From assembly GCF_030540835.1 (NCBI RefSeq), contig NZ_JAUOEK010000161.1, forward strand, positions 1 to 44,633: a DNA stretch of 44,633 nucleotides. Reading direction: 5' to 3'. Each line of letters opens with the position of its first letter. Position 1 is the stretch's first letter. The notes beneath the pieces are model-generated. The model had not been told where the DNA came from and made no database searches. It saw only the letters and a list, made by a program, of their open reading frames with translations. The position numbers and the translations under genes were made by a program. The DNA comes from Flavivirga aquimarina. Its GTDB lineage: Bacteria > Bacteroidota > Bacteroidia > Flavobacteriales > Flavobacteriaceae. Positions 15,205 through 25,874 of this stretch are shown one piece after another.

Positions 15205-16470
15205 TTATATAATTTCTAAAACATCTTCAATAACTCGATAAACTTTTTCTAATTGCTCTTTAGTAATTACATAAGGTGCCTGAATGTAAATTGTATTTCC
15301 TAAAGGGCGAAGAAAAACACCATGGTCTAAAAAGTGTTTAAAAAGTTTGTCCCGTAAATTGCCATAGCGTTTCATTTCTACGTTTAAATCCAAGGCAAAA
15401 ATAATGCCGATTTGTCGTGTAGATTTTACTTTTGGATGGGCTTTTATATGTTCGTTAAACACTTTATGAGAAGCAATAATTGTTTTTATATTTTGTTGAA
15501 TAGTACCCGATTGTAATAATTCTATACTCGCTAAAGCTGCTGTACAGGCCAATGGGTTTGCCGAATAGGTATGTCCATGAAATAGGCCTTTACGAATATC
15601 GTCACTATAAAAAGCTTCGTAAATATCTTCAGAACAGGTGGTAAGTCCCATAGGCACTAGCCCCCCTGTTAATGCTTTACTTAAGCATATAATATCTGGT
15701 TTTGTATCTATATAATCTGATGCAAAATATTTTCCCGTTTTACCAAAACCTGTCATAACTTCGTCGGCAACTGTAATAATATGATGGTTTTTACAAAACC
15801 TTAAAATAGCGTTTAAACCTTCAGAATCATACATTTTCATAGCTGCTGCGCCTTGCACTAAAGGTTCGTAAACGAGACCAGCCACTTTATTGGTTTTTAC
15901 AATGGTATTTAAAGTGTTTAAAATAGCATCATTGTTTTTTCCATTTGGTGTTGGAATTCGTTTCACTTCCAGAAAGAAGTCTTCAAAGGGGCCATTGTAA
16001 ACTGATAATCCAGATACACTCATAGATCCAAAAGTATCCCCATGAAACCCATCTTCGAAAGCAATTAAGACATTTCGTTTTTCGCCCTTATTAAAATGAA
16101 ATTGCAACGCCATTTTTATACCAATTTCGACAGACGTGGAACCATTATCACTAAAGAAAATTTTATTCTGATTATCGGGTAGGATTTTAATAAGTGCTTC
16201 CGATAGTTTTATAGCAGGTTCGTGAGTAAAACCACTAAAAACAATTTGGTCTAATTGCTGCATTTGGGCTGCAACACGATTTGTAATATATTCGTTACAA
16301 TGCCCATACATACATGTGTACCATGAAGCAATAGCATCTATATATTCGTTGCCATCTTCATCATGTAAAATACATCCTTTAGCCTTAGTAATTGCTATAG
16401 TTTCTGGGTGCAATTTATGTTGCGTTAAAGGATGCCAAAGGTGTTTTTTATCGCGTTCTTGTAATTTCAT
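15205..16470 (-). CDS. bioA: Adenosylmethionine-8-amino-7-oxononanoate aminotransferase
   Basis: About 421 residues from ATG 16470 (MKLQERDKKHLWHPLTQHK). An upstream in-frame ATG at 16503 only translates the palindromic repeat and is not a credible start. BioA converts KAPA to DAPA using SAM as amino donor and PLP. Visible motifs: WYTCMYGHCNEYI, FFSDNGSTSVEIGIKMA, FHGDTFGSMSVSG, DEVMTGFGKTGK and the PLP lysine in CLSKALTGGLVPMG. C-terminal FLRPLGNTIYIQAPYVIT is typical. It is downstream of bioD; only the GIY-YIG cassette separates the two genes, with 8 bp left between the cassette and this ATG. Confidence 0.97.
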   Translation of the reverse strand: MKLQERDKKHLWHPLTQHKLHPETIAITKAKGCILHDEDGNEYIDAIASWYTCMYGHCNEYITNRVAAQMQQLDQIVFSGFTHEPAIKLSEALIKILPDNQNKIFFSDNGSTSVEIGIKMALQFHFNKGEKRNVLIAFEDGFHGDTFGSMSVSGLSVYNGPFEDFFLEVKRIPTPNGKNNDAILNTLNTIVKTNKVAGLVYEPLVQGAAAMKMYDSEGLNAILRFCKNHHIITVADEVMTGFGKTGKYFASDYIDTKPDIICLSKALTGGLVPMGLTTCSEDIYEAFYSDDIRKGLFHGHTYSANPLACTAALASIELLQSGTIQQNIKTIIASHKVFNEHIKAHPKVKSTRQIGIIFALDLNVEMKRYGNLRDKLFKHFLDHGVFLRPLGNTIYIQAPYVITKEQLEKVYRVIEDVLEII

Positions 16471-16478
16471 AGTTCCGT

Positions 16479-16503
16479 CGTCATGCTGAACTTGTTTCAG
16501 CAT
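16479..16503 (-). repeat. Left palindromic end of the GIY-YIG cassette
   Basis: ATGCTGAA / TTCAGCAT arms around CTTGT. On the minus strand the core is CTGAAACAAGTTCAG. It begins 9 bp beyond the nuclease stop codon. Confidence 0.75.
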
Positions 16504-16512
16504 CGCATTAAG

Positions 16513-16791
16513 TTAATAATCTAGAGTCTTTAAAGTTGGATTCAATTCCTTGATCAAATTGAGTTTCCATTCTCTATGCCAATTTTTTAATTGTTTTTCT
16601 CTAGCAATCGCTTGTTCAATGTCTGAAAATTCTTCAAAATAGATCAAATCTTTTGTGTTGTATTTTTTAGTGAACTTTGAAGCAGTTTCATCATAATGTT
16701 CTTCTAATCGTTTTGATAGATCTGCCGTAACTCCAATATAAAATGTAGTTCTGTATTTATTCGTTAATATGTATACATAGCTTGATTTCAT
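16513..16791 (-). CDS. GIY-YIG nuclease family protein
   Basis: 92 residues, a stand-alone GIY-YIG domain of the small YhbQ/UPF0213-like kind. Y-V-Y (5-7) and Y-I-G (18-20) form the signature; Arg28 and His32 in LSKRLEEHY and the Glu of AREKQLKNW are the expected catalytic and metal-binding residues, so it looks active. There is no added DNA-binding domain. It sits between bioD and bioA, with family palindromes starting 9 bp beyond each end of the gene. Such proteins are common and mostly uncharacterised; some act as homing or repair nucleases. That it moves or processes the flanking palindromes is my inference. Confidence 0.92.
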   Translation of the reverse strand: MKSSYVYILTNKYRTTFYIGVTADLSKRLEEHYDETASKFTKKYNTKDLIYFEEFSDIEQAIAREKQLKNWHREWKLNLIKELNPTLKTLDY

Positions 16792-16800
16792 ATTTATTAT

Positions 16801-16851
16801 GTGACACTGAAATACTGAAACAAGTTCAGCACAAGCAAGTTCAGTGTGACG
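16801..16851 (+). repeat. Right palindromic end of the GIY-YIG cassette
   Basis: Contains CTGAAACAAGTTCAG (16815-16829) and a second partial copy AAGCAAGTTCAG, enclosed by ACACTGA (16804-16810) / TCAGTGT (16841-16847). Orientation is opposite to the left end. Confidence 0.7.
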
Positions 16852-16855
16852 TTAC

Positions 16856-17464
16856 TTACAACCTGTCTCTAAACAATTCAGCATATTCTTTTACAACATT
16901 CTTATCAAAATATGGCTCTTCATTTATACGTCCAATAACGGGAGCCTTTGTCATTTTTTTAATAATATCCTCTGTAGTTTTATGTTCATCTCCACTATAA
17001 ATAAGAGAGACATCAAAGCCCTTATCTTTTAAAGTATTTATAGTTAATAGCGTATGATTGATGCTTCCTAAATAATGTCTGGAAACAACAATAACCTTAT
17101 AATTTGGGTTAATAATATCTAAAACGGTTTGGGTATCATTTAAAGGGACTAATAAGCCACCAGCCCCTTCAATAACCAAATGATTTTTTGTTTTTGGCTC
17201 ATTGATTTGTTTTATATCAATTGAAACACCATCAATAGCTGCCGCAGCGTGAGGGCTCATAGGAGTTTCTAAAGCATAGCTGTTTGGGTGGATTTTTGAC
17301 TTGCTATTGGTAATAAGTTTTCCGACAGTATATTTGTCGTCATGTTCCAGTTCACCTGCCTGAACCGGTTTCCAATAGTCTGCTTGTAAAGCTTCGGTTA
17401 CTATGGCAGAAGCTATGGTCTTACCTACATCGGTAGATATTCCTGTAATGAAATATGTCTTCAT
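16856..17464 (-). CDS. bioD: Dethiobiotin synthase
   Basis: 202 residues. BioD closes the ureido ring of dethiobiotin from DAPA, CO2 and ATP. P-loop GISTDVGKT (8-16), then DYWKPVQAGE with the catalytic Lys, PMSPHAAA, and VIEGAGGLLVPLN, all family hallmarks. The start overlaps the stop of the DUF2007 gene as ATGA, implying translational coupling. It ends 4 bp before the GIY-YIG cassette. Confidence 0.96.
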   Translation of the reverse strand: MKTYFITGISTDVGKTIASAIVTEALQADYWKPVQAGELEHDDKYTVGKLITNSKSKIHPNSYALETPMSPHAAAAIDGVSIDIKQINEPKTKNHLVIEGAGGLLVPLNDTQTVLDIINPNYKVIVVSRHYLGSINHTLLTINTLKDKGFDVSLIYSGDEHKTTEDIIKKMTKAPVIGRINEEPYFDKNVVKEYAELFRDRL

Positions 17465-17901: not shown

Positions 17902-17921
17902 ATGTTGAAACTAGTTCAACA
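17902..17921 (+). repeat. CTGAAACAAGTTCAG-family palindrome at bioF 3' end
   Basis: ATGTTGAA / TTCAACAT arms around ACTAG. Compared with the 16483 copy, C-to-T and the matching G-to-A changed together, so pairing is preserved. The bioF stop codon lies inside it. Confidence 0.7.
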
Positions 17922-19088
17922 TGACTCCGTCACAAAAGTAGCAAGTAACTTTAATACGTTTGATATGTCTTCTTTTGAATTGAATGCATGTAAGCAAAAA
18001 CGCAATCGTTCTTGTCCTTTTGGAACTGTGGGAGATAATATGGGTTTTATATTGAAGTCTTGTTCTTGAAACTTTTGGGCAATTTGTTTTACAGTATCAT
18101 TCCCAGGAATAATACAACAATGTATAGCAGAATCACTTTCAATAAAATATGTTTGAAGCTTATTTTTAATAATCTCATTTTTAAAATGAGCAATATTTTT
18201 ATAGAGTTGTTCTTTATTCTTGGTTAAAACCAATTCATGATAAGCAGCATGAATATTAGCTAATGCATGAGGGGGTAAAGCTGTAGTGTAAATAAAACTT
18301 CGAGAAAAATTGACTAAATATTGCTTTAAAGAGTCACTTCCTAAAATCGCAGCACCATGTGCTCCTATAGCTTTTCCAAAAGTAATAATTCGAGCAAAAA
18401 CATCCTTTTCTAATTTTAAATGCTGGGCTAATCCTATACCGTTTTTCCCAAAAACGCCAACCGCATGTGCTTCGTCTATAATTAAAAAAGCATGGTGTTT
18501 TTTACATAATTGTACCATCTTTTTTAAGTCTGGTGAATCGCCATCCATTGAGAAAACGGATTCTGTGACTATAAAAATATTAATTTCGTGTAAGGCCTCT
18601 CGACTGCCTGGCCGTCCGGCAGGCGGGCGCTCGAGGAGACACTCTAAGTCCTGCAAATCATTATGTTTAAACTTATAAGCTTTTGCATTAGAAAGTTGTA
18701 TACCATCACGAATAGATGCATGACTATATTCGTCATATAAAATAATATCTCCGCGTTGCGGAACAGTAGAGAAGAATCCTAAGTTTGCATCGTAACCAGA
18801 ATTAAAGATTAAAGCAGAGTCACTGTTATGAAAATTAGATAGCAAGGCTTCTACAATGTTGAAAAGCGGATGGTTTCCTGAAAGAAGTCGAGAACCTGTT
18901 GCTCCATTATTGGTTATGTTATGTCCAATTAAAAACTCATGAGTATTATTAAAAATAGTTTCAGATTTTGAAAATCCGAGATAATCGTTGGATGAAAAAT
19001 CTACTTGACTATTTGGAACCTCTAATTGCCGTAAGGCATTATTAGCTTTACGTTCTTCTAATTTTTTATATAGTTTTTTAGGAAACAT
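17916..19088 (-). CDS. bioF: 8-amino-7-oxononanoate synthase
   Basis: 390 residues. PLP enzyme condensing pimeloyl thioester with alanine to KAPA, the first dedicated ring-building step. Motifs: SNDYLGFSKS, GATGSRLLSGNHPLF, ALIFNSGYDANLGFFS, YDEYSHASIRDG, ESVFSMDGDSPDL, DEAHAVGVFG and TFGKAIGAHGA with the PLP lysine. Between HNDLQDLECLL and INIFIVTESVF the protein carries an unusual ERPPAGRPGSREA stretch encoded by a GC-rich palindrome (18599-18635). The last residues and stop codon (VTESC) come from a second repeat. It is the first gene of the biotin operon and diverges from the DUF2975 operon. Confidence 0.95.
   Translation of the reverse strand: MFPKKLYKKLEERKANNALRQLEVPNSQVDFSSNDYLGFSKSETIFNNTHEFLIGHNITNNGATGSRLLSGNHPLFNIVEALLSNFHNSDSALIFNSGYDANLGFFSTVPQRGDIILYDEYSHASIRDGIQLSNAKAYKFKHNDLQDLECLLERPPAGRPGSREALHEINIFIVTESVFSMDGDSPDLKKMVQLCKKHHAFLIIDEAHAVGVFGKNGIGLAQHLKLEKDVFARIITFGKAIGAHGAAILGSDSLKQYLVNFSRSFIYTTALPPHALANIHAAYHELVLTKNKEQLYKNIAHFKNEIIKNKLQTYFIESDSAIHCCIIPGNDTVKQIAQKFQEQDFNIKPILSPTVPKGQERLRFCLHAFNSKEDISNVLKLLATFVTESC
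18599..18635 (-). repeat. GC-rich palindrome inserted in frame in bioF
   Basis: CTCGA (18599-18603) and TCGAG (18631-18635) enclose GCCTG..CCG / CGG CAGGC pairing at 18606-18624. It is far richer in G+C than any neighbouring stretch and encodes Arg/Pro/Gly in a gene otherwise typical of its family, so it looks like an inserted repeat. Confidence 0.65.
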
Positions 19089-23982: not shown

Positions 23983-24261
23983 TTAATCTGCTAAGACTAT
24001 AATTTTATTATCTTTCATTTCTATAGTTCCGGAATTTATTTTTAATAAAGTCGTGTCTTTTTCGCCTTTAGTAAATTTGTCCTGAACATCTTCATCTAAT
24101 TCAATATTCCCTGAAATTTTCACAATACCTTCTTTTAATAAAGATACAATAGGAGCGTGATTATTTAACATTTCAAAGTCTCCATTAACTCCGGGAACAG
24201 CAATACTAGTTACTTCTCCACTAAATAAGGTTGCTTCAGGTGATACAATTTCTAAATACAT
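23983..24261 (-). CDS. atpC: ATP synthase epsilon subunit, short form
   Basis: 92 residues. The N-terminal beta-sandwich is complete (YLEIVSPEATLFSGEVTSIAVPGVNGDFEML, quoted as family text in part; NHAPIVSLLKEGIVKI). The helical C-terminal domain of the ~135-residue E. coli protein, which inhibits ATP hydrolysis, is absent, as in related Bacteroidota. It is downstream of atpD, with three palindromes in between; the start codon touches the last of them. Confidence 0.93.
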   Translation of the reverse strand: MYLEIVSPEATLFSGEVTSIAVPGVNGDFEMLNNHAPIVSLLKEGIVKISGNIELDEDVQDKFTKGEKDTTLLKINSGTIEMKDNKIIVLAD

Positions 24262-24280
24262 ACTAAAACTTGTTTTAGTA
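24261..24280 (-). repeat. Palindrome at the atpC start
   Basis: TACTAAAAC / GTTTTAGTA, perfect 9-bp arms around TT. It keeps the ACAAG centre of the CTGAAACAAGTTCAG family with paired arm changes, and ends on the A of the atpC ATG. Confidence 0.65.
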
Positions 24281-24299
24281 CCCTGAACTTGTTTCAGGG
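24281..24299 (-). repeat. Palindrome between atpD and atpC
   Basis: CCCTGAA / TTCAGGG around CTTGT, an exact CTGAAACAAGTTCAG core on the minus strand. It directly adjoins the copy at 24261-24280. Confidence 0.75.
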
Positions 24300-24333
24300 T
24301 TTTTAAATTTTATTGAAAATTCAATTTTAAAGA

Positions 24334-24352
24334 TGCTGAAATAAATTCAGCA
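24334..24352 (-). repeat. Diverged palindrome after atpD
   Basis: TGCTGAA / TTCAGCA around ATAAA. Same arms as the 16483 copy, with a different loop. Confidence 0.65.

Positions 24353-25874
<1,522 letters not shown>

Follow-up and report, generated by a model that had tools for sequence, protein, structure and literature searches.

What is a lone nuclease gene doing between two tagged hairpins at the junction of bioD and bioA? The question is raised by a stretch of 44,633 nucleotides from Flavivirga aquimarina (contig NZ_JAUOEK010000161.1, hereafter the window), which is part of a 5.29-Mb genome assembly of 184 contigs. A sequence-only reading of the window had described a GIY-YIG gene cassette with inverted palindromic ends, and had interpreted it as a minimal, transposase-free mobile element whose enzyme mobilises or copies those palindromes; the observation is confirmed here, and the interpretation is partly supported.

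The hairpins recall the CGTC-tagged REPs, multicopy sequences with an unpaired CGTC, often TGTC, tag, stems of 8–9 bp that nearly always begin with AT, loops of 4–5 nt and short tails, mostly CCA (Di Nocera, De Gregorio, Rocco 2013, PMC3733652). According to the portions of that survey consulted here, their hosts belong to five phyla, with Bacteroidetes, alpha-Proteobacteria and Neisseria among them; Neisseria dRS3 and Rickettsia RPE-4/RPE-6 are placed in the same superfamily; and the repeats “apparently lack a dedicated transposase,” none having been reported in those portions with CGTC REPs on its flanks.

Anatomy of the unit and its enzyme

The coordinates and spacings given by the sequence-only reading all held on recheck (Table 1). 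The same 4-base tag stands at both ends of the unit and is directed outward (CGTC at 16479 and, on the opposite strand, at 16851), and the unit borders are the tags themselves. Nine bases separate the gene from the hairpin on each side, while the unit lies 4 bases from the bioD stop and 8 bases from the bioA start. The nuclease gene is intergenic, the flanking bioD and bioA frames aligning over their own length, and the ORF list holds no transposase gene within the 373-bp unit.

Table 1. Features of the window at and around the unit, and other hairpins of the same family.
Feature	Position	Strand	Remarks
Whole unit, tag to tag	16479..16851	.	373 bp, between bioD and bioA
Left CGTC-tagged REP hairpin	16479..16503	+	Tag CGTC 16479-16482, directed away from gene; 8-bp stem 16483-16490 / 16496-16503; loop 16491-16495
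GIY-YIG nuclease gene	16513..16791	-	92 aa; from ORF list; PF01541 match
Right REP end	16801..16851	-	Tag 16848-16851 (GACG on +, CGTC on -); outer stem CACTGAA/TTCAGTG; loop holds REP-like palindrome CTGAAACAAGTTCAG, 16815-16829
bioA, downstream neighbour	15205..16470	-	421 aa; ATG at 16470; gene name from earlier reading
bioD, upstream neighbour	16856..17464	-	202 aa; gene name from earlier reading
Further hairpin, same family	17902..17926	-	AGTC tag; perfect 8-bp stem; paired change ATGTTGAA/TTCAACAT
Family hairpin without tag	24279..24302	+	Between ORFs 23983-24261 and 24363-25871
Diverged second hairpin of the 24279..24302 pair, CTGAAATAAATTCAG	24331..24355	+	

The left hairpin, ATGCTGAA, has the 8-bp stem opening with AT pairs and the 5-nt loop of a CGTC-tagged REP, and folds at -6.7 kcal/mol (z -3.5), a value reached by 1 of 200 shuffles. 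At the right end, the hairpin is nested and opens with AC instead of AT; it folds at -8.8 kcal/mol (z -1.7), a value reached by 9 of 200 shuffles. In genome G016, which has the unit at the same junction, the right REP occurs in the plain, un-nested form. The palindrome that had been assigned to the ends is exact at both, but each forms part of an asymmetric tagged hairpin, with a second hairpin in the loop on the right. The hairpin tail in the window is CGCA; CCA tails are frequent in other REP families. The left hairpin shares tag, stem length and loop with the CGTC-tagged REPs as described, and the repeat shares their multicopy character; here, a GIY-YIG gene lies between such REPs, for which the portions of the survey consulted report no dedicated transposase (PMC3733652).

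The palindrome CTGAAACAAGTTCAG occurs exactly at 16486-16500 (-), 16815-16829 (+) and 24283-24297 of the window. With up to 3 mismatches it is found 8 times there, against 1.75 expected, and none of 100 shuffles reached 8. Genome-wide there are 26 exact copies, and a reversed control pattern has none. As in CGTC-tagged REPs, the repeat is dispersed, in these 26 copies, and inverted REP-like pairs occur at the bioD-bioA junctions of relatives. REP-like palindromes are also present within the loops of other REPs, at the right end in the window and in 9 of the 26 family copies (by reading), some of them degraded. A composite of the ATTCCTGC stem with CTGAAACAAGTTCAG inside is itself repeated (own-genome loci L019, L023-L026, L028, L033-L035 and 16801-16851 of the window), which hints that REP loops serve as insertion targets.

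In a set of 28 REPs from the window family, pairing is kept in 222 of 224 pair cells, and 4 of the 8 pairs show changes on both sides, with a covariation score of 0.33 against 0.10 when shuffled. Pairing in this set arises partly by selection, since all but the window's own REPs were chosen by a hairpin filter, and its informative part is the variety of paired changes. The best-hairpin score was dropped as sole measure, being weak (medians 7 versus 6 shuffled) because the stems are short; the discriminating feature was the tag. Also set aside was ORF 23983-24261, which we take to be atpC, as a second GIY-YIG gene: it gave no GIY-YIG alignment and is absent from the own-genome matches.

The 92-residue product was rightly called a GIY-YIG nuclease, matching PF01541 at E 4.9e-17. 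Residues Y7, Y18, R28, H32, E65 and N84 are invariant in 46 aligned sequences, and we take Y7, Y18, R28, E65 and N84 to be the catalytic Tyr, Tyr, Arg, Glu and Asn. The structure model (pLDDT 93) is nearest in fold to UPF0213 1zg2 (E 3e-4), the only match at E <= 0.001, followed more weakly by Slx1, a branched-DNA nuclease (E 0.02 at best); by sequence, the closest solved relatives are UPF0213 / YhbQ (PDB 1zg2, 1ywl). No link of UPF0213, YhbQ or Slx1 to repeats was found among the papers listed by searches of open-licence PMC full texts. The sole NCBIfam match falls below its cut-off; like the weak PHROGs matches, it is to homing or intron endonucleases. A close phage origin was rejected, the phage matches listed (15 of 17) being at most 40.5% identical, and so was a group I intron or intein around the gene, Rfam giving no match up to E 1 over 16300-17000 and the gene being intergenic.

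A protein search of the own genome returned 12 matches to the GIY-YIG protein, 2 of them with internal stops. By eye, hairpins lie beside most of these paralogs, with stems that differ from one to another; under strict scoring, a GTC-tagged hairpin is present on at least one side of 5 of 10 and on both sides of 1 (L003). The window gene itself scores as one-sided because its other end is nested.

Association and correspondence of gene and hairpin

The association was measured on loci gathered by a scan of GTDB contigs using the protein only, with a profile made from a 13-row protein alignment, several rows of which came from loci already known to have REPs. Since only the best 80 of 577 confirmed places were retained, the set represents the REP-type subfamily and not a random draw of GIY-YIG genes; 3 loci were dropped for short flanks and 2 with short frames were kept, which left 77 usable. 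A hairpin was scored when a GTC tag stood directly before the stem and outward, within 200 bp, with an arm of at least 7, at most 1 mismatch and a loop of 3–12. Among these 77 loci from the best 80 of 577, such hairpins lie upstream of 43, downstream of 42 and on both sides of 29, versus 24 of 559 control windows taken at these loci (Fisher OR 27, p 5e-45); when each flank-homology group is represented by a single locus, 35, 34 and 22 of 66 remain. When all 64 trinucleotide tags were ranked on the same 77 of the best 80 loci, TCA came first and GTC second (that is, GTCA), the 63 tags below the top one having medians of 6 upstream and 5 downstream. Inward GTC-tagged hairpins occur as well at these loci, 21 upstream and 23 downstream, and a few single-sided matches, such as that downstream of L225, look like chance.

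Restriction to intergenic flanks leaves the contrast in place: a hairpin is found on 67 of 123 sides at nuclease genes versus 22 of 230 at control genes, and on both sides of 23 of 52 nuclease genes versus 1 of 73 other genes (OR 57). Palindromes of this class are indeed commoner than chance would give near GIY-YIG genes of this kind, as had been predicted, and in many phyla; the contrary outcome, equal frequency beside other genes, did not occur. By record title, the both-sided loci of the best 80 of 577 come from Bacteroidota, alpha-/gamma-Proteobacteria, Neisseria, Chloroflexi, Armatimonadota, Omnitrophus and candidate phyla. Around the genes of relatives, a GTCA hairpin is both-sided in 16 of 128 cases versus 0 of 133 control genes. 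Most REPs found read as CGTC or TGTC, AT, stem, loop, stem, AT and tail, the tail often being CCA. REP pairs around the GIY gene point outward in 27 cases, the same way in 11 and inward in 6 across phyla (best 80 of 577), and in 15, 7 and 1 among relatives; for gene-less pairs, the corresponding counts are 55, 33 and 32 at the cross-phylum loci (best 80 of 577) and 3, 12 and 12 at those of relatives.

Related genes occur in a plasmid collection too, tblastn of the window protein matching 34 of its records. These include Sinorhizobium meliloti, Azospirillum lipoferum 4B, Novosphingobium aromaticivorans and Neisseria, all four of which are named as CGTC carriers in the portions of the 2013 survey consulted (PMC3733652). 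Strict scoring of 20 of the 34 records places an outward GTC hairpin upstream of the gene in 12 and downstream of it in 12; it is both-sided in 10, of which 4 are copies of a single locus in Sphingobium. The A. lipoferum gene stands between sufB and sufC with a whole REP pair on each side. Similar-looking hairpins, one-sided or with another orientation or tag, are present in A. caviae, N. gonorrhoeae, Planktothrix, Spirosoma and Sinorhizobium records; no hairpin was scored at the Rhizobium tumorigenes plasmid locus, and no outward hairpin at those of Methylobacterium bullatum and Photobacterium.

Enzyme and REP correspond. Across phyla, protein identity and REP similarity are correlated (Mantel r 0.53, 0 of 2000 permutations, n 56, from the best 80 of 577 places); two REPs of one gene have a median similarity of 0.86 versus 0.56 for REPs of different genes (n 29), and in 13 of 29 cases the best match is the partner REP of the same gene. 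When 126 small GIY-YIG proteins of relatives are placed on a tree, built on few columns so that some joins may be false, the flank labels (20 groups, unlabelled and tRNA included) change 41 times versus 83 when shuffled, none of 200 shuffles being as low. Pairs of genes were also compared for REP class, on 66 labelled genes whose labels are regexes composed after the flanks had been read, and at non-matching loci, i.e., genes with dissimilar distant flanks, which takes out shared ancestry of place. Among relatives, the class is shared by 67 of 74 such pairs at protein identities of at least 70%, by 106 of 280 at 50-70% and by 143 of 1714 below 50%. The enzyme family is not bound to one palindrome: its clades have their own stems, and the shared part is the tag. 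Two loci, L003 and L134, are 80% identical in DNA and carry unlike REP stems, the two ends of each element matching one another, as if both ends had been swapped together.

A separate clade of 30 small GIY-YIG genes adjoins tRNA genes; for 23 of them, the label comes from tRNA motifs at one flank or both. The loci concern tRNA-Leu (L090, L103, L109, L122, L124, L129), tRNA-Pro (L148, L151, L154, L178, L182, L184), tRNA-Val (L099, L130, L139) and tRNA-Arg (L107, L143, L095). Many have an intact tRNA on one side and a duplicated piece on the other, and some form tandem arrays. Rfam detected no group I intron in five loci of this type, the tRNA only. The clade looks like a tRNA-gene-targeting relative of the REP-type nuclease.

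Junction states, homology ends and REP abundance

Among 30 bioD loci, bioA adjoins bioD in 22, and 19 of these junctions were read. Three states are found, with no clear target-site duplication made out at the junction. The gene unit is present at 3 of the 19 (G000, G008, G016), with 378-388 bp from bioD to bioA. A gene-less insert of 83-113 bp occupies 10, namely all the other genomes of the same genus, and has the look of paired REPs from another family, which in some genomes are degraded. Neither is present at the remaining 6, among which are the empty junctions that the sequence-only reading had proposed to look for: bioD and bioA overlap there by 4, 4, 4 and 1 bases in G034, G028, G020 and G035, counted from the real bioD stop, and are spaced 21 and 79 bases apart in the two others. 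The insert hence parts genes that overlap in insert-less relatives (L062, L064, L068, L070), and the suggestion that excision would restore a tight operon was nearly right, although the insert-less state is an overlap.

In G005 (L059), the gene-less insert retains an apparent start of the nuclease gene and looks, from its sequence, like a deletion derivative of the gene unit. At L210 and L212, the bioD frame is without a stop at its usual end and apparently enters the REP, which appears to furnish the bioD stop codon.

The window copy itself looks like an old resident, vertically inherited and under purifying selection, because the gene occupies the same junction in several genera and has a dN/dS of 0.05-0.09 in three pairs. 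Besides G008 and G016, it lies between bioD and bioA in Flaviramulus basaltis, Winogradskyella ursingii, Tenacibaculum agarivorans and a Lutibacter (two copies), and recent mobility of this copy is not supported. The gene is absent from the junction in 10 of 12 genomes of the window's genus. Recent transfer of the window gene was also weighed. In all 15 of 15 species pairs, the GIY gene shows fewer synonymous differences than bioD does, and in 13 of 15 fewer than bioA, most clearly for G000-G008 (0.29 versus 0.61 in bioD and 0.56 in bioA); with about 52 sites, near saturation and possible sequence constraint, this gives the idea no definite weight.

Homology that stops at the tags is seen elsewhere. 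At the non-matching loci L003 and L134, the DNA is alike exactly to the tags, from TTGTCA to TGACAA. Among 255 non-matching pairs, homology ends within 5 bp of a tag in 26 of 208 cases on the left and 21 of 215 on the right, a total of 47 versus a shuffled mean of 21 (largest of 300 shuffles, 36); the other 376 of 423 ends lie farther than 5 bp from any tag. The homology of the L003 element with G009 stops at the tags. A clean empty site for L003 was sought and rejected, because in the relatives listed its two flanks are separated by kilobases or fall on different contigs. Contig C12 of G009 has a tandem array in which REP and gene alternate, and at G009:C45:117176-118585 B-type REPs form an array in which most are paired at a spacing of about 116 bp. 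Nested REPs, arrays and tag-bounded homology would fit REP cutting followed by copying.

Copy number of REPs as a simple function of enzyme presence proved only partly true. In a scan of 60 relatives, A-type REPs are present in 12 of 12 same-genus genomes, at 4-30 copies, and an enzyme at least 60% identical to that of the window in G000 and G008 only of these 12. B-type REPs likewise occur in 12 of 12, at 7-33 copies; G001, G003, G007 and G008 have 11-26 of them without a B-type enzyme at least 60% identical. At the same cut, G017, G028 and G038 have 6-10 A-type REPs and no A-type enzyme, and G052 has an A-type enzyme (62%) and no exact A-type REP. Over 296 Bacteroidota genomes, a GIY relative is found in 56 of 60 that have the ATTCCnGC REP versus 133 of 236 that do not (OR 10.8, p 7e-9, kinship ignored); by reading, no GIY relative was found in the other 4 of the 60 (G137, G190, G248, G316).

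A candidate mover for CGTC-tagged REPs

The association is real and matches a gap stated in print; the function proposed for it would be as follows. The unit would consist of a small structure-specific nuclease gene bounded by two CGTC-tagged REP hairpins with their tags outward. The nuclease may recognise its cognate tagged REP as an extruded hairpin, a cruciform or a single strand and would cut there, after which repair of the break by the host would copy a REP-bounded stretch from elsewhere in the genome. Such copying would spread the full unit (REP-gene-REP) together with gene-less derivatives (REP pairs, REPIN-like), on which the enzyme would act in trans, and CGTC/TGTC REPs would be non-autonomous members of elements driven by the GIY-YIG nuclease family. 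Structure-specific cutting of an extruded REP is favoured because the model is UPF0213-like and weakly Slx1-like and the residues listed above are invariant. GIY-YIG enzymes hydrolyse DNA without a covalent intermediate, and transposition of the RAYT kind is consequently unlikely; we know of no strand-transfer activity among them. The route of movement of the unit would be repair copying rather than excision of single-stranded DNA.

We hold it probable that the unit is a GIY-YIG “REPtron,” whose nuclease spreads its own REP-bounded gene and gene-less REP pairs, and the recurrence of gene and hairpins across many phyla makes this nuclease a strong candidate for the missing mover of CGTC-tagged REPs. 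Several results count against it: REP copy number follows the enzyme only in part, both-sided REPs are strictly scored at just 1 of 10 own-genome paralogs, the few gene-less pairs of relatives do not mostly point outward, several plasmid loci have REPs otherwise oriented or none, most homology ends lie away from the tags, and the window copy looks vertically inherited. REPtrons and REPINs of the REP/RAYT (TnpA_REP) type offer a close parallel: in the portions of the sources consulted, they share tagged palindromes in inverted pairs, a REP-associated enzyme gene, gene-less pairs elsewhere and co-evolution of enzyme and REP, but have an HUH/Y1 (IS200/IS605) transposase where the unit has a GIY-YIG enzyme, and a GTAG tag where it has CGTC/TGTC (PMC3116915, PMC8266576). 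The unit would accordingly be REPtron-like in its working and yet no RAYT system, as its enzyme comes from another superfamily. A RAYT/Y1 transposase as mover in the own genome was considered and rejected, 8 of 10 Y1 matches having been scanned and none having such REPs beside it; Y1 flanks (6 read and 8 scanned) held one GTC hairpin-like stretch, unlike the REPs of the unit. Among the papers listed by searches of open-licence PMC full texts, a link between GIY-YIG genes and REPs was not found: the consulted parts of PMC6006769 and PMC12306157 do not mention GIY, and in those of PMC9465073 GIY-YIG and RayT occur only as separate list entries.

The most serious competing explanation, which we think unlikely without being negligible, makes the gene a passenger: another enzyme would spread the CGTC REPs, and GIY-YIG homing genes would repeatedly invade REP pairs as their target. 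Homing endonucleases of the I-TevI type are GIY-YIG enzymes. The fold is that of homing nucleases, the NCBIfam match below cut-off and the weak PHROGs matches point the same way, in several genomes REPs persist beyond the enzyme or exceed it in number, and the sister clade adjoins tRNA genes, not REPs. As far as the consulted part of PMC10448857 goes, phage homing genes of this kind share with the unit the catalytic domain family and the aspect of a small, selfish-looking intergenic gene; the enzyme here differs in being a single 92-aa domain bounded by palindromes that are multicopy in the genome, and, unlike GIY-YIG homing endonucleases in introns, it sits in no known intron, Rfam having no match at the site. 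Against a passenger speak the REPs themselves, beside which neither the consulted portions of the 2013 survey (PMC3733652) nor the scan of 8 of the 10 Y1 matches in the own genome place a transposase gene, and the tracking of REP class by enzyme relatedness, which a homing passenger could nevertheless also yield.

It is considerably less probable that the nuclease is a domesticated host enzyme, selected by the host, which trims REP cruciforms or falls under their regulation, the REPs acting as binding sites or terminators. Strong purifying selection, a UPF0213-like and weakly Slx1-like fold and long residence at bioD-bioA would suit such an enzyme, but its patchy presence, tandem arrays, broken copies and differing insertion sites would not; homology, moreover, stops at the tags in several pairs, and REPs on two sides with outward tags are unexpected for a regulator. 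That tagged hairpins are simply common in intergenic DNA and lie near GIY-YIG genes by chance is hardly credible, for although REPs are intergenic by nature and 22 of 230 control gene flanks carry one, the excess of both-sided cases on intergenic flanks (23 of 52 versus 1 of 73) and the enzyme-REP correspondence argue against it.

The GIY-YIG “REPtron” reading extends to a wider claim on which our judgement is evenly balanced: that a transposase-free class of mobile DNA exists in many phyla, in which a homing-type GIY-YIG nuclease of about 90 aa is the missing enzyme of the CGTC REPs and propagates them by break-and-copy, with an origin independent of RAYTs and a tRNA-targeting sister branch. 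CGTC-tagged REPs, including those of Neisseria (dRS3) and Rickettsia, were left without any enzyme in 2013, according to the consulted portions of the survey (PMC3733652), and a very small named candidate, each enzyme clade of which has a repeat of its own, makes this question directly testable. If the claim is true, the REP-plus-enzyme lifestyle would have arisen twice, with unrelated enzymes, and homing nucleases would be linked to the dispersed repeats of bacteria.
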